From NCBI GenBank assembly GCA_903955385.1, contig CAJBNH010000138.1, positions 1 to 64,000 on the forward strand: a DNA stretch of 64,000 bases, given 5' to 3'. Position numbers and translations under genes: made by a program. Shown piece after piece: positions 9,748 through 49,400 of this stretch (positions are counted from its first letter, which is position 1; each line of letters starts with the position of its first letter). The notes below the pieces were generated by a model, which was not told where the DNA came from, searched no databases, and saw only the letters and a program-made list of their open reading frames with translations. Origin of the DNA: an uncultured Myxococcales bacterium. Lineage in GTDB: Bacteria > Myxococcota_A > UBA9042.

Positions 9748-9988
9748 GGTCTGCCTCCTGCTGCGATGGGTTCCTGCCGGGCGCCTCGGGGCTCTGTGGG
9801 ATGACCCGTGAGGCATGAAGGGGACGGACGACCCCTGCCGTTTCTGACACGCCAAGCGCGATGGCCCCCAACAGACCGACACGACTGCGGTTTTTCGCGC
9901 TCGTCACCCCACGTCAGAAATTCGCCGCGGCATCCGCCCCCTAACCGAATGGACCAGCCCCGGTCCCCTTGGGCGAAGATGGAGTGAG

Positions 9989-12373
9989 ATGGCTCGCCTG
10001 CACTGCAAGCCACGGGTTGCGTTGACCCGTCCGGGGCGCCGGGCTAGGTTGGCGTCCATCGATCGCCGCTGGCGGCGCCGCGCCCACACCGAGGCTGACG
10101 TGTCCGAAGAGGCCAAGAACGCCGTGCACGCCTTCCGCCGCGACGACCGGGTCGGCGTGGCGCGCGCGCACCGCCTGTTCGCCCACGCCTGGCGCGGTCC
10201 GCTGGTCGACCATCTGGACGCGCGCGAAAGCCTGGACGTGCAGCTTGCGGTGGACACACTGCTGCCCTGCGCCCGCGAAGCCCGTCAGGCGCTGACCCCC
10301 GTGTTCGCGACGCTGGCGCGCAACCAGCGCCGTTTTTCGCAGACGGGAACTTGGGAGCTGGCGAGTGCCTCTGGTGTTGCGGCCGTGCTGCTGACAGAGC
10401 TGCGTGAGGCCCTGTACGCCGAGGCTACGCGCGCCCTGTGGCTGGAGGCCGACCCGACGACAGCACTGCCCCTGGTGACCCGAACCCAGCTGGAGACGCT
10501 GGCCCAGACCACGCTGGAGGCGCTGGCGACCGCCGTTGCCAGTCACACCGAAGCCACCGACCGCGACCTTTGCATGGGCCTGTTGGTGGCCCGCGACGCC
10601 GCGCTGACGAGTCTGTGGGGTGAGGTGCCGCGGACCTCGACCCGCCGCGACCGCGCGTTTGCCGCCGTGTATGCCGCACTGGTCCGCAGCTGCGCGGTGG
10701 CCAAGGTTGCGCCAAAGGAAGCCGAAGACCTGTGCAGCCAGCTGATGTTGCGCCTGCTCGACGGCCTTGCGCTGCAGTTCGACGGGGTGCCCGACCTGCG
10801 CAGCGCTGGTGTGCGGGCGTGGCTGAACCGGCTGACCTCGCACCGCAACCTGGACGAGGTCGACCGCCGCCAACGCTCGGGGGCCGACAGCCGACGCGCA
10901 CTGCGGCTGGACAGCGAGGTGTGGAGCACGGGTATCGACCCCGAGGAAGGCATCGACGCGGCGTTTCTGTGCTCTGTGGTGGGCTTGCACCGCTTGCCCG
11001 ACCGCGACGAGCCGCCACCGCCCAAGGCGACCGAGGAGCAGGTGCGCGACCGCATCTGGCTCGACCGCGCCGCCCATGACCTGACGGCGGCCCAGCTGCT
11101 GGTCAAGTGGCGACCCTTTCTTGCCGAGGCGACGCCCGTGCCGCCGATCCGCACCACTGCGGTGGCAGCGACGGAGCTGGCAGCGTGGAACAAGGTGCGG
11201 CGGCTGCCGCGGGCGGTGTCGGCAGCGCTGGAGCGGCTGGTTGCGACGGGGCCGCGGTCGACCAAGGCGGCGGCGGGCTGGGCGGCGCTGGCAACGGCGC
11301 TGGTGCAGCATGGCACTGCAGGCGTTCCCGACGGTCCAGAGCAGCAGGCACTGGCGCGAGCGTGTGAGGACCTGGACCTGCGGCTGTGCGGGGATCCCCT
11401 TGCAGAGCAGGGTCTTGGACCCGCCTGTCGCGCATGGTTCGACGCGTGGATGGCCTGGCTGCGGTTCTACGACGCGTTCCAGGCCATGCTGACCCGCCAC
11501 CGCGCGCTGCTGGCCACCCGGGTGCGCCACCGGCACGGCGTGGCGATTGGTGCGACGGTCGACCGGCTGAAGCAGGGCAGCGCCTTCGAGCGTCTGGCGG
11601 CCCGCTATGCGTCGCTGGCCACCGCGCTGGGCGGTCGTGCAGAGGCCGGGCGAGGCACCGAGGGCGACGTGCGGGTTACCCGGCGAGAGGTCGACGAGGC
11701 GATTCTGTGCGGCAACATCAAGCGGTTGAGGACGTTCGACACAGGCTCGCTGCAGCGCTGGCTCGACGCGGTCGCGCTGCCGTATCACCTGGAGCGCTGG
11801 GCGACACGCCGCCAGACCTCGGCAGATGCGGCGCTGGCCAACGCGGTGGCGGCGGGCGTGTCGCGGCTGTTGGAGGAAGACGGTGCTGAGCCGCGACCGC
11901 TGGCCGGAGCGGTTGGCGGCAGTGAGGGCGCGCGGGCGGCCAGGCTGCATCGGCGTGCGGAAGATGCTGTCGCGACAACACTTTCCCTGCTGCCCGGGGC
12001 GGTGACGGACCCGCACACTGTGGCCGCACGCATCGTCGAAGGGCAGCCGCACTTGTGTCAGCTGTTGGCCGCCGCGGTCGTGAACTGGTCGCTGGCCCCC
12101 GAGTTCGGATTTCAGCGGCCCAACGAGCCTGGCCGCAGCCGGACCCCGACCGCGGGACACGCCCAGCTGCCGGCTGAGGTGACGGCCACGCTGCTGGGAC
12201 ATGCGGTCGACGGGCTGGCCCAGACCGAGTCCTTGGCCGCGTCGACGCGAGAGACCTGCCTGCGCGCCGCCAAGGCGCACGCCTTGGGCGAGTTGCACGC
12301 CGCGCTGACCCGCGGACCGCTTGCCCACCTGCAAGAAGAACTGCCCAGCGAGGTGCGAAGATGGAGCGACTGA
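9989..12373 (+). CDS. large protein with sigma-70 region 2-like segments, operon gene 1
   Basis: A 794-residue soluble, Arg/Ala-rich helical protein with no signal peptide or membrane segment; I do not recognise it as a whole. Residues about 225-300 (AFAAVYAALVRSCAVAKVAP, then EAEDLCSQLMLRLLDGL, then RAWLNRLTSHRNLDEVDRRQ) resemble sigma-70 region 2 of ECF factors in order and spacing. A second, weaker segment at about 567-615 (DTGSLQRWLDAV, then LERWATRRQ) has a similar look. There is no evident region 4 helix-turn-helix. The start is uncertain: ATG 9989 has GGAG four bases upstream, but GTG 10100 has GAGG at good spacing and drops an Arg-rich leader. The last 13 bases overlap the zinc-finger gene, so the two are translationally coupled. 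It may be a transcription regulator or a DNA-binding part of the methyltransferase system. Confidence 0.6.
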   Translation: MARLHCKPRVALTRPGRRARLASIDRRWRRRAHTEADVSEEAKNAVHAFRRDDRVGVARAHRLFAHAWRGPLVDHLDARESLDVQLAVDTLLPCAREARQALTPVFATLARNQRRFSQTGTWELASASGVAAVLLTELREALYAEATRALWLEADPTTALPLVTRTQLETLAQTTLEALATAVASHTEATDRDLCMGLLVARDAALTSLWGEVPRTSTRRDRAFAAVYAALVRSCAVAKVAPKEAEDLCSQLMLRLLDGLALQFDGVPDLRSAGVRAWLNRLTSHRNLDEVDRRQRSGADSRRALRLDSEVWSTGIDPEEGIDAAFLCSVVGLHRLPDRDEPPPPKATEEQVRDRIWLDRAAHDLTAAQLLVKWRPFLAEATPVPPIRTTAVAATELAAWNKVRRLPRAVSAALERLVATGPRSTKAAAGWAALATALVQHGTAGVPDGPEQQALARACEDLDLRLCGDPLAEQGLGPACRAWFDAWMAWLRFYDAFQAMLTRHRALLATRVRHRHGVAIGATVDRLKQGSAFERLAARYASLATALGGRAEAGRGTEGDVRVTRREVDEAILCGNIKRLRTFDTGSLQRWLDAVALPYHLERWATRRQTSADAALANAVAAGVSRLLEEDGAEPRPLAGAVGGSEGARAARLHRRAEDAVATTLSLLPGAVTDPHTVAARIVEGQPHLCQLLAAAVVNWSLAPEFGFQRPNEPGRSRTPTAGHAQLPAEVTATLLGHAVDGLAQTESLAASTRETCLRAAKAHALGELHAALTRGPLAHLQEELPSEVRRWSD

Positions 12374-13440
12374 CCCGAGCACGCAACGGCCGCTGCTCCC
12401 GCACCGCCGTCGAGCTGCTGGCCGCCCATGCGGAGAGCGACGCGATGCTTGCCACTTGGGGCCTTGCGCTCGGCACGACCCGCGGCGGCGAGACGTGGCC
12501 GGCCGACCTGCTGGAGTACGCCCGCCATGTCTCTGCGTGCTCGCGCTGCCGCAGTCGATTCGAGGCGTTGCGTCTGGCCGGGTTGGCCGTGCCCGCGGCG
12601 GAAACGCCCGCCCACGACGTGCGCCGCCACCCGGCCCGCATCGAGCTGGAGAACCACGTCCTGGGGCGCGTCGACCCGCGACGGCAGCGCGCGCTGGAGG
12701 CCCACCTGGCCACTTGCCCGGCCTGCGACGGCGAAGCGCGCTACCTGCGAGGCTTGAGCGGAGCGGTGGACCGCGCCCGCGAGGCCGTCCACACCATCGG
12801 CGACGCGACCCACGCGCCGACCGCAGCCGACGCCGACTGGGCCCGCGCCGGTCGCGGTCGATTCAAGATCGTGCGGCGCATCGAAGCGCACGAGCCAGCC
12901 GCCCAGCCCACCCGCGCGCCTGCCCAGCGCATCACCGCCCGGGGGTTGCAAGTACGGATGCAACCTACAGTTCGCGTAACGGCAGCACTGGTGGCCCACC
13001 CCAAGGACGCCAAGCGACGTCTGGCCAAGACCGGCCGGTGGAAACGCGAGCTGACCGCCCAGGAAGACCCTTCGCGCCTGCTGACCTGCGGCATCCACCG
13101 CGACGATCTGTTCGAGGTCAGGCTGGTCGAGGCGTGGGAGGCCGAGTTTTCGTCGCGCCTGAGCGCACCTACGACCGCGGACTTCGAGCACCTGGGCCCC
13201 AGCTCGGTCATCGTGTCGGTGGTGGCGCGCGAGTCGGACCATCAGCACGCCATGGACCTTCGCGACAGGGTGACGATCGTGACGGGCCGGGACGCACCCG
13301 CGCGCTTTGTGGATGAGGCGCAGGTGCAGAGCTTCGTGCTGCCCGTCGACACCGATGGCCGCGTCGAGCTGGCGGTGTCCACACCCGACGGCCCCACCCG
13401 TCTGGTGCTGGAATTCGTCCGCCCCCCCGCGGCGGGGTGA
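12361..13440 (+). CDS. double HxxxCxxC zinc-finger protein, anti-sigma-like, operon gene 2
   Basis: A 359-residue cytoplasmic protein whose ATG lies inside the end of the preceding gene. It carries two zinc-finger motifs of the anti-sigma (zf-HC2) pattern: His56-x3-Cys60-x2-Cys63 and His115-x3-Cys119-x2-Cys122, each on a helical hairpin as in ZAS-domain anti-sigma factors. Classical anti-sigma factors follow these with a membrane helix; here there is none. Instead there is a basic linker (about 140-215) and a beta-rich C-terminal domain (about 215-355). Position right after a sigma-like gene supports a sigma/anti-sigma style pair, but this is inference. The stop is followed six bases later by the first methyltransferase start. 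It could instead be a zinc-dependent adaptor for the methyltransferases. Confidence 0.65.
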   Translation: MERLTRARNGRCSRTAVELLAAHAESDAMLATWGLALGTTRGGETWPADLLEYARHVSACSRCRSRFEALRLAGLAVPAAETPAHDVRRHPARIELENHVLGRVDPRRQRALEAHLATCPACDGEARYLRGLSGAVDRAREAVHTIGDATHAPTAADADWARAGRGRFKIVRRIEAHEPAAQPTRAPAQRITARGLQVRMQPTVRVTAALVAHPKDAKRRLAKTGRWKRELTAQEDPSRLLTCGIHRDDLFEVRLVEAWEAEFSSRLSAPTTADFEHLGPSSVIVSVVARESDHQHAMDLRDRVTIVTGRDAPARFVDEAQVQSFVLPVDTDGRVELAVSTPDGPTRLVLEFVRPPAAG

Positions 13441-13446
13441 CCGCGC

Positions 13447-14709
13447 ATGTCGGCTTGCCTCCTCGACAATCCCGCCTCGTCGGTGCCCGCTGCAGTCGAA
13501 GTGCGGCCGCTCGACGCGTTCTCGGACCGCGAGCGCGACCTGATGCAGCTGGCGGGGCTGAGCGGCCTTGCGACGGTCGAGGCGTGGCGGGTTCTGGGGA
13601 CCAGTCGGCAGCTGGCGTCGTCGACCCACGGGGTGTTCCGCTACTTCGGCAAGTTCCCTCCCCCGCTGGCGCGCCACCTGATCCAGACGTTGACTGCACC
13701 GGGGGACCGCGTGCTGGACCCCATGGCGGGCTCGGGCACCACCGCCGTCGAAGCGCTGGCTTTGCAGCGGCACGTGGAAGTACGCGACATCTCTCCGCTG
13801 TCGGCGCTGCTGTGCCGGGTCAAGACGCGGCAGGTCCCGCGCCGGGCGGCCGACGAGGCGATTGCCCGCGTCGTGCAGCGCCGCAACCAGCCGCTGTCGG
13901 GACCGCCGCCCTCGCCGGTCGGCCTGCGCAACCCCGAGCACTGGTTCCTGCCAGAGACCACCGCCAGCCTGGCGTCGCTGCGCGCGGCCATCGAACCGGA
14001 GACGGAAGTGGGCGCGCGCGAGCTACTGCTGACGGCATTTGCCTCGACCGTACGCCGGGTTTCGAGGGCGACGACACAACAGGGACGGCTGTTTCTGGAT
14101 GTGGACAAGGCCAAGGCCGACGCATGGCCCACCTTCCTGCAACGCTTCGAGAAGTACGCGACCGCCGTCGCCTCGCTGCCGCCAGAGCGCGGCGTAACGC
14201 TTGAGGTCCGTGAGCAGGACGCCAGGCAGCCATCGCCCACGTCCGGCCCCTTTCGTCTGGCGATCGTCCACCCGCCGTACTTCAACAACTACCGGTATTC
14301 GGCCATCAATTCGCTGGAGCTGGCTTGGCTTGGCTTTCCCCCCAAGGACGTACGGGCCGACGAGATCCGCGAAGCCTTCAAGGTCGGCAAGCCCGAGAAG
14401 GTCGCGGATTACGTGCAGGATCTTGCCGCCGTGGTCGCCGCGGTCGCCGGCCAGCTTGCCCCGCAGGCCACGCTTGCGCTGATGATGGGCGACACGGTCA
14501 TCCGCGACCGCTATCTGGACGTCACGCGCCAGCTACTGACGGCCATCGCCGACACCGACGCCGGTCTGCGGCTGGACCGGATCGTGCTGCGCGTACCCCA
14601 GTTTACCGAAGCGTCGTGGGTCGCCAGCCAGCGCCGCAAGGGCGACAAGGTCGGCGTGACGCTTCACGATTTCGTGCTGCTGTTCTCAAAAGTCGGGGGC
14701 GCGGCATGA
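13447..14709 (+). CDS. DNA methyltransferase (amino-group type), operon gene 3
   Basis: A 420-residue SAM-dependent DNA methyltransferase acting on exocyclic amino groups (N6-adenine or N4-cytosine). The SAM-binding motif I is DPMAGSGTT (91-99), preceded by FRYFGKFPPPLARHLI, which is typical of the N4/N6 class with motif I near the N-terminus. The catalytic motif IV reads HPPY (275-278) within VHPPYFNNYRYSAINSLELA; Asp, Asn or Ser normally stands in the first place, so His is unusual. The C-terminal GDKVGVTLHDFVLLFSK is the usual final strand of these enzymes. A GGGGTGA ribosome site overlaps the end of the previous gene, and its stop overlaps the next start (ATGA). No restriction nuclease is adjacent. 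Target sequence unknown. Confidence 0.85.
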   Translation: MSACLLDNPASSVPAAVEVRPLDAFSDRERDLMQLAGLSGLATVEAWRVLGTSRQLASSTHGVFRYFGKFPPPLARHLIQTLTAPGDRVLDPMAGSGTTAVEALALQRHVEVRDISPLSALLCRVKTRQVPRRAADEAIARVVQRRNQPLSGPPPSPVGLRNPEHWFLPETTASLASLRAAIEPETEVGARELLLTAFASTVRRVSRATTQQGRLFLDVDKAKADAWPTFLQRFEKYATAVASLPPERGVTLEVREQDARQPSPTSGPFRLAIVHPPYFNNYRYSAINSLELAWLGFPPKDVRADEIREAFKVGKPEKVADYVQDLAAVVAAVAGQLAPQATLALMMGDTVIRDRYLDVTRQLLTAIADTDAGLRLDRIVLRVPQFTEASWVASQRRKGDKVGVTLHDFVLLFSKVGGAA

Positions 14710-16310
14710 GGCCGGATGCCTTCTCCCACCTCGCCGTGACCGCCCAGACGCACCCGGCCGGCTATGCCTTTCACAAGTACTGGTCCCGCAAGCCCCACAA
14801 CGTCGTGCGGGCGGCACTGCAGGCGTGCGGCGTGGGTCCGGGCGAGGTGGTGCTGGACCCGTTTTGCGGCAGCGGCGTGCCCTTGAGCGAGGCGGCCGCG
14901 CTGGGTGCCACCTGCGTCGGGCTCGACGTCAATCCGGTCGCGGTGCTGCTGACCAGCGCGACCCTGCAACCGCCTGACCCAACGCGCTTTCTGGAGTTCT
15001 TCGGCGCGCTGCTGAACGAGACCGAGCGCGAATTTGCCCCCCGCTATGCCGTGGACGGCCAGCCCCTGCACCACGCCGTCCACGCCACCGTCGTCGTTTG
15101 TTCAGCGTGCCAACGGCGGGTGGCGGCAGACGAATCTGCCAAGCGCGGGCGGATCTACACCTGCCCCCACTGCACCGGTCGGCTGGCCTTCAACCTCGAA
15201 AACCTGGTCGCGACCCGCGTGGTGCGCGTGGTGCTGGCCGATGGCAACCAACGCCTGTTGGACCCTGCACACGAGGTCGCGGCCGCCAACCGCAACCAGC
15301 ACGGCGGCGTGTGCGACCAGCCCTTCGAACCCAACGCGCGCATCCTGGCCTTTCGCGGCATGCGCACCCAAGACCTTTTCACGCAACGTAATTTCGCCCT
15401 GCTGACCCAGGTGGCCGGCCGCATCGCCGACCTGCCGGCCGACGTCCGGCCCGCCGCGCGACTGACCCTGACGGCCGCCGTGGCCCAGTGCTCGCGCCTG
15501 ATTGCGTGGCGCAACGACCTGACGACCGGTGGTCCGGCGTGGACGGTACCGGGCTTCTGGGTGCCGCCGCTGCACCTGGAGATGCACCCGATCGCCCATC
15601 TGCGCGCGAGAATGCACAGGACGCACAAGGGGTTTCTGCACCTGGCCGGCATGGCGGGCCGGGGGCCACACCACAGGGTCGATGCAGGCGACGCCGCCAC
15701 CGCCCTGACGACGCTGCCGGAACGCGGTCAGGTGGCCGTCGCGTTTGTGGACCCACCCTACGGCGACTCGGTGCCGTTTCTGGAATTCTCCAGCCTGTGG
15801 AACAGCTTCCTTGGCCGCGTCCCGGATCCGGGCTTGGACTTGGCCGTCAGCAACCGCACGCGAGGCGACGGCGACTGGCCCTCGTACGGGGCCGGCATGG
15901 CGGCGGTGGCGCAAGGGCTGAAGACGGTGCTGCGGCCCGACGGCAAGGCGCTGGTCACCTTCAACAACAAGGACTTGCGGGCATGGCAAGCGCTTCTGGC
16001 GGCGCTGCAACAGGCCGGCTTCCGCTGCCAAGGGGCGTTCTACCAGCACCCGGCGGTCGTGTCGGCCAAGGCGCAACTGGCCCCGGACGGCAGCTATGTA
16101 GGCGATGTGTATAGCGTCTTTGCGCAGTCTGCCGAGGCACCGACCGACGACCTTGCCGCCGTGCACGCCGCGGTTCAGCAGGCGCTTCGGGCGGCGACAT
16201 CGCGGCCTTCGGACGAGGCCTTGGCGCGCGTCGCGATGCTGGCGGCGCTGCGTGGCAACCTCGACGCGAGGCTGTTGAGCTCGGTGCGCCTGCTGCGGGG
16301 ACCCGCTTAG
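14706..16310 (+). CDS. zinc-ribbon DNA methyltransferase, operon gene 4
   Basis: A 534-residue DNA methyltransferase resembling the zinc-ribbon adenine-specific family (COG1743-like, by eye). It starts at 14706 through a 4-base ATGA overlap with the previous stop. The N-terminus GYAFHKYWSRKPHNVVRAAL leads into motif I DPFCGSG (51-57). An inserted zinc ribbon has Cys132-x2-Cys135 and Cys153-x2-Cys156. Catalytic motif IV is DPPY (349-352), followed by the hydrophobic PFLEFSSLWNSFLGR segment and a final strand LVTFNNKDL. Members of this family occur in several phage-defence loci, which makes a defence or epigenetic role for the operon plausible but unproven. The enzyme differs clearly from its neighbour at 13447, so the pair is not a recent duplication. 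Confidence 0.85.
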   Translation: MRPDAFSHLAVTAQTHPAGYAFHKYWSRKPHNVVRAALQACGVGPGEVVLDPFCGSGVPLSEAAALGATCVGLDVNPVAVLLTSATLQPPDPTRFLEFFGALLNETEREFAPRYAVDGQPLHHAVHATVVVCSACQRRVAADESAKRGRIYTCPHCTGRLAFNLENLVATRVVRVVLADGNQRLLDPAHEVAAANRNQHGGVCDQPFEPNARILAFRGMRTQDLFTQRNFALLTQVAGRIADLPADVRPAARLTLTAAVAQCSRLIAWRNDLTTGGPAWTVPGFWVPPLHLEMHPIAHLRARMHRTHKGFLHLAGMAGRGPHHRVDAGDAATALTTLPERGQVAVAFVDPPYGDSVPFLEFSSLWNSFLGRVPDPGLDLAVSNRTRGDGDWPSYGAGMAAVAQGLKTVLRPDGKALVTFNNKDLRAWQALLAALQQAGFRCQGAFYQHPAVVSAKAQLAPDGSYVGDVYSVFAQSAEAPTDDLAAVHAAVQQALRAATSRPSDEALARVAMLAALRGNLDARLLSSVRLLRGPA

Positions 16311-16430: not shown

Positions 16431-20093
<3,663 letters not shown>

Positions 20094-20119
20094 CTCGAGA
20101 ACCTCTTTGGGGCGGAATG

Positions 20120-20731
20120 TCAAGGCATTCGCAGCGGGCGTGGCGCCGTCGCAGCCCAACCGACCGACGTGGGCAGCGGGATGGCGACGACTTCTTGGAA
20201 AGACGACTCCTGGGATGCCGCGCCGATGGCGACGTCGACGGTGCGACCGGCAAGGCCGGCAAAGCACGCCCAGGCGGGACTCTGGCGAGGGGAGGGCTGG
20301 TTCGGCGCGGCGTCGACCGGGTCCACCGCGACAAGCTGGAATCGTTCATGGCCGGCGTCGCCGGGCTGAGCGCGCTCGAAGTGCAGCACGAGCCGCTGCG
20401 GCGTCCGCGGCCCCGGACCCGCCGGCAAACATCGGTCGAGCCCGACCAGCAGGCCCGCCTGAAACTGCGCCATCGCCGCCCTTCGGCGTTGGTCGCGGTC
20501 CTGCAGCGCCGCAAGCTCTGTCGCTGTAAGGGGCGCCGCGAAACCCTGGGCACGCAGACCGTCGCGGCCCGCACGCCGTCCCTGGGCCGGGTTGCGCGAG
20601 TCCAGTTCCGGGCTGACCGCTGCCGACGGAGCGCGAGCGGGCAAGGCGGCGTCCGGACCGCTCGCCAGCCACCAGCCGCAGGCCAGTGCGAGAGCAAAGA
20701 TCCCCGCAGCAGCAATCGTGAATCGTCGCAA
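20120..20731 (-). CDS. small membrane-anchored protein, operon gene 1
   Basis: A 203-residue protein if translated from TTG 20731, which has GGGGGA five bases upstream; a longer frame to 20827 would cross the predicted promoter and palindrome and is rejected. Residues 2-22 (RRFTIAAAGIFALALACGWW) form a membrane anchor or uncleaved signal. An Ala/Arg/Pro-rich linker follows, then a compact domain (about 85-195) with two cysteines (LDRCLPAGP and WACFAGLAG) that may pair. I do not recognise the family. It is cotranscribed with the TSP3-repeat gene 26 bp downstream and may help its export or anchoring; that is inference from position. Confidence 0.6.
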   Translation of the reverse strand: MRRFTIAAAGIFALALACGWWLASGPDAALPARAPSAAVSPELDSRNPAQGRRAGRDGLRAQGFAAPLTATELAALQDRDQRRRAAMAQFQAGLLVGLDRCLPAGPGPRTPQRLVLHFERAQPGDAGHERFQLVAVDPVDAAPNQPSPRQSPAWACFAGLAGRTVDVAIGAASQESSFQEVVAIPLPTSVGWAATAPRPLRMP

Positions 20732-40433: not shown

Positions 40434-43400
40434 TTACTTCGCGGTCGTGGCCGGCAGCGCCCACTTGAAGTCCACCTTCGATTCATACGCCAGGTTGTCG
40501 GCCAGCGCCCACACCATGCGAATGCCCTCGTATTCGAAGAACTCGTACTCGAAGGAGAAGGTGAACGGCCCGATGCCGACGTCGAAGAACAGCCCCAGCG
40601 CGAGCTTGAGGAAGGTCACCTCGATGTCGTTCTTGACCTGAATCTGCACCTTCCACAGGTCGGTGACCGTGTTGGAGGTGGTGGCATCGACGCCCTGCTT
40701 GAAGCCGATGGCGAACTTCACGGGAAACGCGAGCTCGATGATGGTGATGGCCGCCTTGATGCCGGCGAAGATCTCCAGCGGACCGACGCTGCCGCCGATG
40801 CCGCCCTTGATTTGCAGCGCCAACCCGACGGCGGGCGTGACGATGGCGGCGGGCTCCAAGGTGTCCTTGTCCAGCTCGGCACCGAACGCCACCGAGGCCT
40901 CAGGCGACAGTTCCGCCTCCACCTTGAACGGCACCGGCCCGATGGTGGTCTGCTTGGCAAAGCACGCCCGGCCCACAACGATCTTCACGCCGTCGAGCCC
41001 GGTCGGACATTCCTGAATCGGCAGCGGGATCTTGAAGGAGGCCAAGGTGATCTGGCTGGCGTCGACGATCTGCGCCAGCGTGCCGGACGCCTCGGTGGTG
41101 GAAGCGCCACCTAGCTGGGCACCGATCTTCTTGGGTGAGCCGTGCTCGCCCTCCTTGGTCTTGCCCTTGCTGGTCTTGTCGATGCCGATGCCGACGGCCT
41201 GCCGCTTGATGCTGCAGCCCGCGCCTGAGTACTCGCCGTTGTCCCACGAGCTGCCACCGCAGCTCATCTTGGGCAGCGTCGGCAGACTGGGCGGCTGCAC
41301 ATTGAGGATCAGGAACTCCTGCTTGTACGACGCCTTCTTCTTGGTCTGCGCCGCCGCAGGGGTGACCGCCAACGCGATGCTCAGGTCGAGGATCGGAAGC
41401 GTCTTGCCGAACAGGCTGATCGCCTGCTTGGAGTGTGCCTCCAGCAGGTAGTTGCGGTGGTCGGTGGTGCCCGTCTCCAGGGCCAGGGTGCCGTCGGCCT
41501 TCTGCAGACGGAACAGGGCGCCTTGATCCTGATTGAGCGCGATCACCCCCAGGTCGTTGCCCCCGCCGCCCGACTCGCCGTCGTTGCGCGCGTTACCGTA
41601 GAGCTTTTCGTAGGCGACAAAGCCGACATCGCACACGTGGCTGTCGGCCGCGCAGAAGCCCGAGTCGCACATCTTGCCGGCTTGCGGACGGCTGAACTGC
41701 GCGTCGTTCTCCTTGCCCGGCGGTGGGCACGTCGTGCCGTTGGGGAACTTGTTCGGCACGCACACTGGCTTGTTCAAGTCGGCGTTGAAGAACGCCGAGT
41801 CGTAGGTCGCCACGTTGCCGACGTAACCCGTCTTGCCGTCCGCCGTCAGGGTTGGGGGCGACCACTTGAGGTAGTCGCCGCTCGCGAAGCTGTAGCTCTT
41901 GAGGTTGCAGGCACCGATCGGAAACACGTCGGGGTGCACGCACGTCTGGTTGCCTTGGTTGCCCATCCAACCGCAGGTGCCCGCGAATTGCCGCCGATAG
42001 GCCAACTTGGTGGCCTCGGAAAGCGACGACCAGCCAATCAGGTCGTTGCCAATGCCAGCCTTCTGCAGCTGCGAGATGATCTCGGGCGTCAGCAGGCTGG
42101 TCGGGGCCGCATCCTTGAGGATCAGCCGACGCAGAATCGCAAGCGTCGGTTCCTGGTCAAGGATGTCGCCGCCGAAGCCCGCAGGTAAGCCCTTGGCATA
42201 GAACTTGGTACCGACAAACACTCCCGTTGCGCCATTCTTGGTGGTCAGCAGGTCAAAGTAGTTGTCGTACAGGGTCTTGCAAGCGCCAGGCGACATCAGT
42301 GTCCACGCCTGTTTGTACAGCGGTTGGCCGCTGTATTGCTCGCTGCTGCAGTTTTCACACGCGACCCCTGATGCCGTAGCGCCGTCCCACTTCGGGCCCG
42401 ACACGACGCGCGACTGCATGTTCACCGAAGTGCACTGCGCTTGCGTCGTCGCAATGCAGACCTTGTCGTCGCCTTCGGTCAGACTGGCGACAGCGCAGCC
42501 CGCCTTGTCTGGGCACTCTCTGTACGGTCCCCACCAGTAGCCGTCCCAGCTGTTGGAGCTGTAGAAGTTGCGGCCATGCGTCAGCGTCGTGGCGTCGGTG
42601 GTCACCCCGTACAACTTGGTCTTGCGCGAGACGCACAGGCCGCCATCGCAGTCGGTATCGCTGTTGCAGTGGTCGTTGAAGGTCGCGGGCGGGTCCCAGG
42701 CGCACTCGTAGTTCACGGTGCCGGCGTAGGAACCGGTTGCCTTGGTCGGCTTGAAGTTGGCCGCGCAACCGCCTTGGCAGCGGAAGCCTTGCTTGTCGGC
42801 GTAACCCACGCTGGCGCAGTCCTTGCCCAGCTTGAGGCAGTCGGACTTGCACGCGTCCGAAGCGGTCTTGTAGGTGCACTGCCCAAAACCTGCGTACTCC
42901 GGGATGCTGAAGTCGCCCTTGGAGTCCTTGATCCACGCGGTGACCGCGCGGCTGCACAATCCCGTATTGCATTCAGAGTCGTTGAGGCAGGTCTGGCCCG
43001 GGTCCGCCTGCTTGACGCAGTCGCCAGCCACTTCACGGAACCCGACATCACACGTGGCGCAAGCGGCCACGGTCAGCTGCTGGGCGCCGCTCGAGGGGGT
43101 CTCGACGCACGCGCGGTTGCCGACCCCACAGCCAGACGCTGCGCAGCCCCACTGGACGGTCGCCGCCCGTTCGCCAAGACCCAGAACGCGCGGGTAGATG
43201 CGGACGTCGTACACGCCCTGCAGCTTCCCGGCGGCAGGCTGATTGCTGTAGCTGATCGCCGTCGACATGCCGGGCACATAGAAGGCGTCGCCCGCGGGCG
43301 ACGTCACGCTCGCCGTCACGGTGTAGCTCACCGCCGTCAGTCCGAGTACGGCGCTGCCAGCGCCCACGTGGTCGACTCCGGCCGCGGTGTAAACGACCTT

Positions 43401-46400
43401 GGACGCAGCCGTCTTGCCCTGATAGCCCAACGTAACGGCCGGGGTGTCGCCCACCGCAAGGGCGATGCGCACGCGCGCTTCCGTCTCGTCGAAACTCAAG
43501 GTGAAGGTGGGACTTGCCCATGTGGTGTAGCCGGTCTTGGTCTTCTGCGCGACGATGACCTTGCAGTCCGTGGCCGCGTTGGCGCCGCCCTTGGCGACGC
43601 CGTTGGCGCAGTCGAGCCGGGCTTCGGCGGCCAGTGTGCCGGTCACGCCTGAGGTCTTGGCCGTGGCCTGCCACAACAGGTACGAGAGCTTGCTGTTGCT
43701 CTTGGGCAGCAGGATGGTTTGCACCACCGTCGCGCGCCGCATCGCGTCGTCGTCCAACGCCGCCAGCTGCCCCTTGGCAGGGAGGACCAGACGATAGGCA
43801 CCCGCGCTGTCTGCGCTGAAATTGGTCTTGGTGGAGGAGACCTTCGCCCCAGCGGCGTCGACCACGCTGGCCAGATCCGTCTTGCCGGTCGAGGACTGGT
43901 TGCCGTACGCCGCCCAGTCCCAGGGACCTACGGTCGAGCCAGCCTGCACGATCGCGCCGCTGAGCCAAGTCGACGGCCCCTGGGTCCGGATCTCCAGCGT
44001 TTCGTCGCGCGTCAACGCACGGTCGAACAGCGCCGCCCAGCCCAGGGCTGCAGCCGACGTCACCTGCAGGGTTCTCGGCCCCGTATCCGTTGCGTTGAAC
44101 AGGGCACTGCTCCCCGTTCCCGTCGTGCCATAGCCGTCCAGCTCCAGCCGCCGCCCCGAGGCCGACTGCGTCACCGCGACGAACTGCCACGCTCCGTCGC
44201 CCACGACGTGCGCGCAACCCGTCTGCGAGAGCTTGGTGCCGTCGCCGAAGGTGGCTTCCAGCGCGCGGCCGCCGCAGCTCGAGCCCGTCGCAATCTTCAA
44301 GCGAGTCGTCGTGCCCTGCTTCCACTCGAGCAGCGTCGTGCCGGTCGTCACCGTGCCCACGCGCACCCAAGCGCCCAAGGTCCACTTGCTCAGGCCGGTA
44401 AGGTCGTCGCCCTCGGCCGGCAGCGCCATCACCGCGCCGCTGGGCACCGCCAACCCATCGAATGCAGCGCGCAACGGTTGATCCTTGTTCGCCTTCGATG
44501 CTGCCGCGTCCCGCAGCTGTGGCACCGTGACAAGCGCCAGCTGGGGCTTGCCACCCGTGGTCCACAGGCCGTCCTTCACGACGATGCGCGCATCCACGGC
44601 TGGCCACACGCGAGCCACGCCGGCATTGGGCCTGCTGACCAGCCCCTTGAGTTCGTCGGCGTCCAGCGCACGGTCATACAGCATCAGGTCGTCGAAGTCG
44701 GCCAGGGCGGCCACGTCGAAGTTCGTGCCGTTGCCCAAGCACGCCGGACACGCGCCCGGATGGCTGGCTGCGATGCCGCCAAGCTTGGCGGCGCCCCAGG
44801 TCCAGTCGCTCAGGCGCCCCATGCGCACCGCGGTCGCAGAGGCCGTCGGCTTGCCGTTGAGGGCGAGCACCAGTCGGCCGTCCTGAGTCTGGTTGGTCGC
44901 CATGGGCATGGAGGGTTCGAAGACGACCGCCACATGCGTCCACTCGCCCCGGGTCACCGCCACAGCAGAGCGCAGCGACGTCTGACCCGGCACATCGAGG
45001 CGCAGCTTGCTGCCGGCCGACGCAGGCTCGACAGCAAGGTTGAGCACCGGGTCCAGACCAGAGAAGCCGCAGAGGTATCGCACCATCAGGCGCGAGTTGT
45101 CCTTCGCACCGGCCACGCTCGCGCAGGGATTGCCTGCCGCCAGCCACGGATCCACGGTGCAGCTGATGGCGCCCATACACGCCTTTTCCGCCACGGCCTG
45201 GATCTCGGGGTAGGCACACGCGTAAGTCTTGACCAGAGCGAAGTAGCCCTCTCCCGACACACCGGCGATGGTGCCGCCCATGGGCTGGAAGCTCGGACCG
45301 ACAGCCTCGCCGTAATACGCCTCAATGGCCTGGATGCGCAATTTCGCACTCTTGGGCGACGAAGTCAGCGACTGGTCCGGGCACGCCACCTGCAGGCCCG
45401 AGTCCTTCGGACGCGACACCGCAAAGAATTCCTGAAGTTGCCAGGCCTGTCGGTCCGGCCAGTCGACGCTTTGCGCAGAGCCCAGCGCCTGCGACACGGT
45501 CGAGGTATCGGCGGCCAGTCGCACCCACCCCGCGACGGTGAAGCCACCGTTGGAGGCTGTGGCCGTGCTGGCATTGCCGCGCCAGGTACGGTCGGTCGAC
45601 ACGCGAATGGTGCCAAACGTCGAGACGCTGCCATTCCGGGTAGACATCGCGGCCGAGCCGCCGGGGCCGTCCGCAACGACCTTCACGGTGCCGCCAGCGC
45701 GCAGGGCCGATAGCGACGAGTGGACGTTCGGATTGCCCGAAAGCGCGCCATTCGCCGGCACGTAGGCCAGAAGTCCTCGGGTCGGCAGCGGCGGCGGCGA
45801 CGGGCGCACGTCGTCCAAGGGGCTTGCGCTGTAGTGGGCGCGCGCTGTGCCGCCACTGCGGTCGATGACCCGTGGGTACGGTGCGTCCTGCATGGACGCG
45901 GTGGTCTTGGCCGGGCAAGCGCCGCAGTCGGCGCCGCAGGTCAGACAGTCCTCTCCAGTCAAGGCGTTGCACGACTTGTCGCCACAACTGCCGGCCGCCA
46001 GCTTGACGCCGCAGGTCGCCCCAAAGTTGTCGCAGCAGTCGCCGCGCGCCACGCAGCCCGCGTCGCACTGACACGACCATGCCGCGTTCTGGTTGCAAGC
46101 ATCCGACCCGCATTGGTGCGGACCCTGCACGGCGCAAGACTTTGTCCCGGCGTACGGCACGTAGGAGCACGAACCGCCGACAGAAGTGCAGTCCTGCGAG
46201 ATCAACTGCGTCGCAGTGCAGTACTGCAAGTTGTTGCCGGTGCAGGTGCCGGCACTGGTAACGCCTGCCTTGGTGCAGGCTTCGACCCCGCAGATGCCCG
46301 CCGTGGTGCACTGCTGTCCGTCGCCGACGCAGGTGCCGCACGATCCGCCGCAGCCGTCGTCGCCACAGGTCTTGGTGAACTCGTAGCCGGTGTAGCACCC

Positions 46401-49400
46401 GCCAGTCTTCTTGTTGACGTACGTGCACCCCTTGCAGCTGGGCGTACAGCACGAGCCGTCGGCCTTCGCCGTCTGACCTGTCGCGCACGTGGTGAAGCAC
46501 TGGCCCGCACCAACACCCGAGGTCGCACAGGTCTTGCCACTCGAGCAGGTGCCGCAGCTGTTGCCGCAGCCGTCGTCGCCGCACACCCGCTTCAGGGTGC
46601 CCAAACCGCACGAGCAGACGCTGGGGCAGGTGGCCGACGTGCCCGCGGGCAGCGTGTCGGTGCTGCCGCAGACAAAGCGGCCCTGCGCCTTGTTCCAGCC
46701 GGCCTTCTGGCCGTTTTCGCAGGTGACCTGCGTGGCCGCGCTGGCCTTGGCCTCGATGCCCGGACAGGTGGTGATCACGTCCTTGCCGCCCGGGTCTTGC
46801 GCCACGCAGCCGACCAGCGGATACGCACCCTCGCACGGGGTGAAGCACTTGCCCTTGCCGAGGCTGCACAGTTGGCCGCTGCTGCACGAGCCGCAGGAGC
46901 CGCCGCACCCGTCGGGACCACAGGACTTGCCGGAACAACTGGGCGCGCACGCCGCGGCACCGGGGCACTTGAACGGGTACTTGCCGGTCGGCTCCTTGGC
47001 GCCGTCGTCGGTGCAGGTGTAGACCTGATAGGTGCTGCTCCAGCCGCAGTAGCGACCCGACGCTGCACAGTCGTAGGACTCGATCGAATTCGGCGCATGG
47101 CAGGTCAGGAACTTGCGACCGTCACAGCAGCTGACGTCGGTCGGTACCTTGCCGTAACAGGCGATCTTGGGCGCACAGTAGTTGTAGGTGGTGCTGTTGA
47201 CGGCGTAGGAGGAACAGGTTTCCTCGCTCGAGCACGTGCCGCACGTGCCGCCGCAGCCGTCGTCGCCGCACGTCTTGTTGGCGCACTGCGGGGTGCAGCA
47301 CTTGACGGGCTGGACCTTGCTGCCCGACGCGACCTGCTTCTGGCCTGCCGGACACACGCAACTGGGCTTGCCGCCTACGAGTGCGCAGCCGGCGTTTTGA
47401 CATGCCGAGGTACCCGAGCACGCGCCCGCCAGACAGATGTCGTTCACGGTGCACGCCGAGCCGTCGTTGCACGCGGTGTAGTTGGTGGGCTCGAGGTCGT
47501 GGAAGCAATACGGCGCGTATTTCTTTTCGCAGTAGTCCGCGGTGCAGGGATTGTTGTCGTCACAGGTATTCGGCTTGCCCGCCGTGCACTTGTTGTTCGC
47601 GCAGACGTCGTTGACCGTGCAGGGGTTGCCGTCGTTGCACGCGGCGGTATTTGCGGTGTGGACGCAACCGGTGTTGTCGTTGCAGCTGTCGGTGGTGCAG
47701 AGATTCTTGTCGTCGCAGTTCTTCGCAACGCCGCCGCACGCGCCCTTGGCGCACGCGTCGTTCTCGGTGCAAGCCGTGCCGTCGTCGCAAGCCAGGCTGT
47801 TGTTGACGAACACGCAGCCCACCGACGGGGCGCAACTGTCCGTCGTGCAAAGATTCTTGTCGTCGCAAGCGAGCTTGGTGCCGGGCTTGCAGCTGCCCTC
47901 GCTGCACACGTCGGTCACCGTGCAGACGTTGCCGTCGCTGCACGGGTGGCTGTTCGGCACATACTTGCAGCCGCTCTGGGAGTCACAGCTGTCGTTCGTG
48001 CACGCGTTGCCGTCGTTGCACGCAGGCTTGCCGCCGCCGATGCATGTCCCCTGCCAGCAGGAGTCGCCGTTGGTGCATGCATCGCCGTCGTCGCACGGCT
48101 CGGTGTTGTTGGCGTGCTGGCAGCCCAACACGGCGTTGCAGGTGTCCGAGGTGCAGGCAAGCCCGTCGTCACAGCTCTTCGGGTCGCCGCCCACGCACGC
48201 GCCGCCCGCGCACATGTCGCTCTGCGTACACACGTTGCCGTCGTTGCAAGGCTTGTCGTTCGCCGCTGCGTACTGGCAACCCAGCTTGGGGTCGCAACTG
48301 TCCGTGGTGCATGGGTTCTTGTCGTCGCAGCTCAAGCCGCCGCTGCCCGCGCATGAGCCACTCTTGCACGCATCCACCAACGTGCAGATGTTGTTGTCGC
48401 TGCACGGCGCGGTGTTGTTCGTTGTGGTGCACCCTAGCTGCGGGTCGCACGCATCGTCGGTGCACGGGTTGCCGTCGTTGCACGCCTGGATGCTCCAGCC
48501 CGCGCACTGACCGCTCGCGCAGACCGCGCCCAAGTGGCACACGTTGCCGTCGCTGCAGGCCTTGCCGTCGGCAACGGCCGTATGCGGCGCGCAGGTGGTG
48601 GCGTCCAGACAGTCGTCGGTGGTGCAGGGGTTGCCGTCGTCGCAGTTGACGTCCGAGGCGCCCTTGCACGAACCATTGGTGCACGCGTCGTTCTTCGTGC
48701 ACGAGCTGCCGTCGTCGCACGCCGTGGCATCGCTGACGTTGCCGTGCTGGCAGCCCTTGCTTGCATCACAAGTGTCGGTGGTGCAAGGGTTGCCGTCGTC
48801 GCAATTGGGCGCCCCCTGGCCGGGCTGGCAGCTGCCCTGACCACACACGTCGCCGTCGGTGCACACGTCGCCATCGCTGCACGGGCTGGTGTTCGCCGTG
48901 TACTTGCAGCCGGTCGAGGGTTCGCACGCGTCGTTGGTGCAGGTGTTGCCGTCGTCGCAGGTGACTGCGGGACCGCCGGAGCACGCGCCGGCCTGACAGG
49001 TGTCGCCACCGGTACAAGCGTTGCCATCGTCACAGGGCTGGGCGGCCGGCTTGTGGTCGCACGAGGCCGCCAAAGGCGCACAGATCGCCCGGACCGCGAG
49101 CGTCTTCTTGACGCCGCCGCACGGGTCGCCGAACACCGAATTGCCGCCCACGATGCTGCAGGTGCCCTTGCCAAGGCACGCGGCCTTGACCTTGTCCATC
49201 GACTCCACGGCTTCGCAGGTGCCCTTTTGCACGTTCGGGCAGGTCCCCTCGGGCAGACCATAGCTGGCGAACGGGATATCGACGATGGCCGATCCGGGCG
49301 GGCAACTCAGCGTCAGCAGGTCATTTTCGCTGGCCGTCTTGCCACACAGGGTGCTGGCGGTGGACGGCGTGCAGGTGGCCACCACGCCAAGCGACTTGTC

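Follow-up and report, generated by a model that had tools for sequence, protein, structure and literature searches.

Two DNA methyltransferases without a recognised nuclease in an operon with sigma- and anti-sigma-like genes from an uncultured Myxococcales bacterium

Introduction

Why would two DNA methyltransferases, with no nuclease recognised beside them, be encoded directly behind a sigma-like and an anti-sigma-like gene? The question is raised by an operon in a stretch of 64,000 nucleotides from an uncultured Myxococcales bacterium (GenBank contig CAJBNH010000138.1, positions 1 to 64,000), called hereafter the window. A preliminary description of this DNA had proposed either a self-contained epigenetic switch or a defence system, in which the sigma/anti-sigma-like pair would control or guide modification. 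We asked where the methyltransferases come from, how far the likeness of the two upstream genes to sigma and anti-sigma factors extends, and whether the four genes recur together elsewhere.

Results

Four closely packed genes

The operon occupies positions 9989-16310 of the window, on contig 138 of a 5.3-Mb genome (G000) that is 95.6% complete. Its four closely packed genes are all on the + strand. Gene 1 (9989..12373) encodes a 794-aa protein with a putative, divergent sigma-70 region 2 and otherwise no family, and gene 2 (12361..13440) an anti-sigma-like protein of 359 aa. Gene 3 (13447..14709) encodes a 420-aa DNA methyltransferase of family PDLC03239, and gene 4 (14706..16310), whose start is the ATG of an ATGA, a 534-aa DNA methyltransferase of family PDLC03367. 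The open reading frame coordinates reproduce the packing that had been described (a 13-bp overlap, a 6-bp gap and the ATGA overlap), and the operon structure stands.

Codon usage was scored with a model that had learned from other genes of the window, including genes 3 and 4 but not genes 1 and 2, and for each of the four genes only the annotated sense frame was positive. On these scores a spurious open reading frame in high-GC DNA was rejected. Long antisense frames are open opposite all four genes. One of them, of 813 aa (window 9941-12382, strand -), spans the whole of gene 1, and its codon score is at the non-coding level.

The two genes that flank the operon, both of them on the opposite strand, encode an FGE-sulfatase domain and thrombospondin type 3 repeats, respectively; the flanks also encode a transporter, a VWA protein and a MerR protein. 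No nuclease was recognised within the operon or in the adjoining genes, in agreement with the preliminary description. A defence island was not borne out, as the flanks gave only weak, partial PADLOC matches, none of them convincing. A comparison of relatives for an empty site found that the flanking synteny is not conserved in them.

Two further features of the window were noted. The protein encoded next to the operon (window 16434-20267, strand -) contains 12 thrombospondin type 3 repeats. Further away, one uninterrupted frame of 3902 aa (window 40437-52142, strand -), which is high in GC3 and begins like a signal peptide, probably encodes a giant surface or secreted protein.

An intact-looking methyltransferase pair

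Gene 3 matched the PADLOC MTase_II model PDLC03239 over nearly its full length (E=4.4e-85), and gene 4 matched MTase_II model PDLC03367 over most of its length (E=1.8e-135). The presence of motifs I and IV in both proteins, claimed earlier, was confirmed, and both enzymes look intact. Motif I reads DPMAGSG in gene 3 and DPFCGSG in gene 4, and motif IV reads HPPY and DPPY, respectively; each protein has motif I ahead of motif IV, with about 180-300 residues separating the two. The HPPY of gene 3 is not a sign of decay, since it was present in all seven family members compared, including ones that adjoin a nuclease gene. Between its motifs I and IV, gene 4 carries a four-cysteine, zinc-ribbon-like motif (15099..15173, +), whose CxxC...CxxC residues (C132, C135, C153 and C156) were invariant in 7/7 sequences. 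Among solved structures, gene 3 was best matched by a cytosine-N4 enzyme, the match being confined to the motif I region. In trees of the two genes the window had no firm position, and the branch of its gene 4 was long.

A profile search with gene 3 revealed six other loci (L058-L063), five of them from the genome collection and one from the viral collection, and in all six the gene 3 relative is directly followed by a gene 4 relative. Identity to the window ranged from 43 to 52% for gene 3 and from 38 to 44% for gene 4 (six relatives each). A scan of the genome contigs with gene 4 alone gave no match. In three of these loci, from Clostridiaceae strain 1XD21-29 (L060), an Elusimicrobia MAG (L062) and a viral contig (L063), the pair is adjoined by a protein of about 205 aa and by one of about 490-505 aa that matches PDLC03392, 'Type II nicking endonuclease', with E values of 3e-141 to 3e-180. 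At L059 (genome G284) both flanks are visible and no nuclease is found, so that the methyltransferase pair stands alone. At L058 and L061 the contig stops at or just past gene 4.

The three nuclease-bearing loci appear as complete four-gene BtsI/BsrDI-like restriction-modification loci (L060:9959-15175, L062:9998-15204 and L063:3034-8401), in which the nuclease genes run either in the direction of the methyltransferases or opposite to it. A different arrangement was observed on the Methylobacterium indicum plasmid pVL1_4 (L041:4905-8646), where two adjacent DNA methyltransferases are followed by a phospholipase D-like protein; this layout resembles that of BfiI-like restriction systems.

A probable orphaned modification half

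In BtsI, a large subunit that nicks DNA is combined with a small subunit and with two methyltransferases, one for each strand (PMC2909958; review PMC4081073). The layout of L060, L062 and L063, a nicking-endonuclease-family protein of about 490 aa with an approximately 205-aa protein and a methyltransferase pair, matches this published organisation, a likening that rests on gene layout and the PADLOC label, not on direct comparison with BtsI or BsrDI sequences. A genome-wide search for PDLC03392, which found the protein in three positive controls, showed it to be absent from G000 (95.6% complete) as well as from G218 and G284. The small protein of L060 had no match in G000, in a search run without a positive control. 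Because PDLC03392 is absent from G000 and the pair stands alone at L059, genes 3 and 4 appear to be a modification half without the usual nuclease, and are best read as the orphaned modification half of a restriction-modification system. A nuclease of another family could be encoded elsewhere in the genome. A BtsI/BsrDI-like modification half also explains why two methyltransferases are present, a point that the preliminary description had missed.

Gene 2 encodes an anti-sigma-type double zinc finger

Two HxxxCxxC motifs were found in gene 2, at residues 56-63 (12526..12549, +) and 115-122 (12703..12726, +), the second lying within a match to zf-HC2 that is over the cutoff (E=1.3e-5). Among 20,000 shuffled versions of gene 2, not one contained two such motifs. 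The protein further showed weak matches to the solved-structure chain 3hug_B, the anti-sigma factor RslA (E=0.006), and to anti-sigma families. No transmembrane-like stretch was found in gene 2, and its C-terminal 200 residues matched no family. The anti-sigma-type double zinc finger reported earlier thus holds, on the two motifs and the zf-HC2 match, and by its sequence gene 2 is a soluble anti-sigma-type protein with two ZAS-type zinc fingers.

Gene 1 is probably derived from a sigma-70 factor

Full-length gene 1, which encodes a soluble protein, matched no family. One stretch, at residues of about 230-296 (10676..10876, +), aligned with positions 7-70/71 of the sigma-70 region 2 model PF04542 at 14-16 bits, with E values of 0.01-0.04 against Pfam, under the curated cutoff. 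When the fragment 10625-10970 was searched against all of Pfam, Sigma70_r2 was matched over positions 7-70 of 71 (E=0.01, under cutoff), and five NCBIfam models matched the same fragment, all of them sigma-70 factors and all under cutoff. In a genome-wide Sigma70_r2 search the gene 1 stretch came next after the 13 clear matches of the genome (E=0.19). With a small profile made from the sigma factors of this genome itself, gene 1 scored only on a par with the top few of 500 shuffles. No fragment of gene 1 matched sigma-70 region 4, and the protein, at 794 aa, would be a large one for an ECF sigma factor.

A second sigma-like unit, around residues 570-640, had neither profile support nor an internal repeat and was rejected; of the region 2-like stretches that had been claimed, one is therefore retained, at sub-threshold level, and the second dropped. 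AlphaFold predictions from single sequences of genes 1 and 2 had a mean pLDDT of 39 and were not used for fold search; the very low-confidence model of gene 1 is all-helical, with no strands. Taken as a reading of these matches, gene 1 is probably derived from a sigma-70 factor, which we hold with moderate confidence.

The four genes were not found together elsewhere

No homologue of gene 1 was detected in 53 relatives, in 379 genomes of the phylum, in viral contigs or in plasmids, nor in 199 genomes of the phylum of the Elusimicrobia MAG, this last search being run without a positive control. For gene 2 no convincing homologue was found, the 379 genomes of the phylum included; of two weak matches, one was a short anti-sigma-like stretch and the other contained three stops. 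Relatives of gene 1 or gene 2 were found at none of the six other pair loci (L058-L063). A conserved four-gene order is thus not supported (0/6 other pair loci, none convincing in the 379 phylum genomes). The lack of recurrence weakens the idea of a conserved system but is no argument against a local function; as genes 1 and 2 accompany the pair at no other locus found, their functional link to the methyltransferases depends on a single operon from a single MAG.

Discussion

The explanation that we prefer, and to which we give about an even chance, is a solitary two-strand methylation module, once part of a BtsI/BsrDI-type system, under a private sigma/anti-sigma-like controller. Genes 3 and 4 would stem from a BtsI/BsrDI-type Type IIS/IIT system, nuclease-less in this lineage, and would provide one methyltransferase for each strand of one asymmetric host site; two-strand methylation most likely follows from their families and the literature. 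The product of gene 2 would bind that of gene 1 and hold it until a cytoplasmic signal frees it, and the two would most likely govern how the operon is transcribed, and perhaps act at other promoters too. A regulatory role of genes 1 and 2 is suggested by their neighbourhood and by the weak matches, and we likewise infer active methyltransferases, a gene 1 product that binds to RNA polymerase, inhibition of that product by gene 2 and control of methylation by genes 1 and 2. Against this explanation stand the sigma matches of gene 1, all under curated cutoffs, the own-genome sigma profile that scores no better than the best shuffles, the missing region 4 and the large size of gene 1, the fact that genes 1 and 2 accompany the methyltransferase pair at no other locus found, and a possible nuclease of another family elsewhere in the genome.

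It is possible, if doubtful, that an ordinary orphan methyltransferase pair lies downstream of unrelated sigma/anti-sigma-like genes, co-transcription being incidental and without functional coupling. In favour of this reading, the pair is autonomous at L059, genes 1 and 2 do not travel with it at the loci found and the flanks show no convincing defence genes, whereas the same-strand gap of 6 bp between genes 2 and 3 argues for co-transcription.

A fuller version of the epigenetic switch first proposed is rather unlikely: here a sigma/anti-sigma-like pair without close relative would set the expression of a two-strand, restriction-modification-derived methylation module in a self-contained manner. 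Such a switch would be a sigma-type counterpart of the controller proteins of restriction-modification operons, with possible feedback through methylation of its own promoter.

Another reading that we consider unlikely makes genes 1 and 2 a new effector or component of restriction in place of the two nuclease subunits, their sigma and anti-sigma likeness being borrowed or due to chance. Gene count and adjacency are the same as in the four-gene restriction-modification loci, and genes 1 and 2 are without recognisable homologues, as restriction enzymes often are. However, neither gene resembles the nuclease subunits or matches a nuclease family; hhalign comparison with these subunits gave a probability below 1%, and diverged nuclease subunits were rejected. 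Moreover, the low-confidence model of gene 1 is strandless, unlike PD-(D/E)XK folds, and such weak family matches as genes 1 and 2 have are to sigma and anti-sigma factors.

Finally, a complete defence system, in which gene 1 would sense or silence invading DNA that lacks methylation (it might block or redirect RNA polymerase, for instance) and methylation would mark self, would fit nuclease-less two-strand self-marking beside a transcription-factor-like protein, but is highly improbable given the absence of a defence-island setting and of four-gene recurrence.

The known controllers of restriction-modification operons are, to our knowledge, small helix-turn-helix proteins. If the private-controller explanation is true, the operon would reveal a second mode of regulating DNA methylation, and a path by which a restriction system becomes a regulatory mark. 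It predicts that both strands are methylated at one asymmetric site. The pair itself points to a wider cassette across several phyla, in which two methyltransferases occur either together with a BtsI/BsrDI-like nuclease or on their own.

How does the operon compare with known systems? As in BtsI/BsrDI (Type IIS/IIT) systems, genes 3 and 4 are two adjacent methyltransferases, of families found beside a nuclease in L060, L062 and L063; in contrast to these systems, neither nuclease subunit was found in the operon, and two unrelated genes lie upstream of the methyltransferases. Orphan methyltransferases, such as CamA (PMC13395437), are often regulatory. Genes 3 and 4, with motifs I and IV intact and the expected large nuclease subunit absent from the 95.6%-complete genome, recall CamA, Dam and CcrM, and differ from them in that two enzymes are paired, an asymmetric site is probable, and sigma/anti-sigma-like genes share the operon.

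The adjacency of a sigma-like gene to a HxxxCxxC gene that matches 3hug_B and zf-HC2 recalls ECF sigma factors with ZAS anti-sigma factors, for example SigL-RslA. Unlike sigma factors of this type, gene 1 is 794 aa long, has no detectable region 4 and scores under the cutoffs, and unlike the ZAS anti-sigma factor, gene 2 carries a double finger and is without a membrane segment. The C (controller) proteins are dedicated transcription regulators encoded with Type II restriction-modification operons (PMC3874152), and here too a candidate dedicated regulator is encoded in a methyltransferase operon. C proteins are helix-turn-helix proteins that control a nuclease, whereas the putative regulators of the present operon are sigma/anti-sigma-like. 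The methyltransferase pair is thus of a known kind, and what is new here is its apparent coupling to sigma/anti-sigma-like genes.
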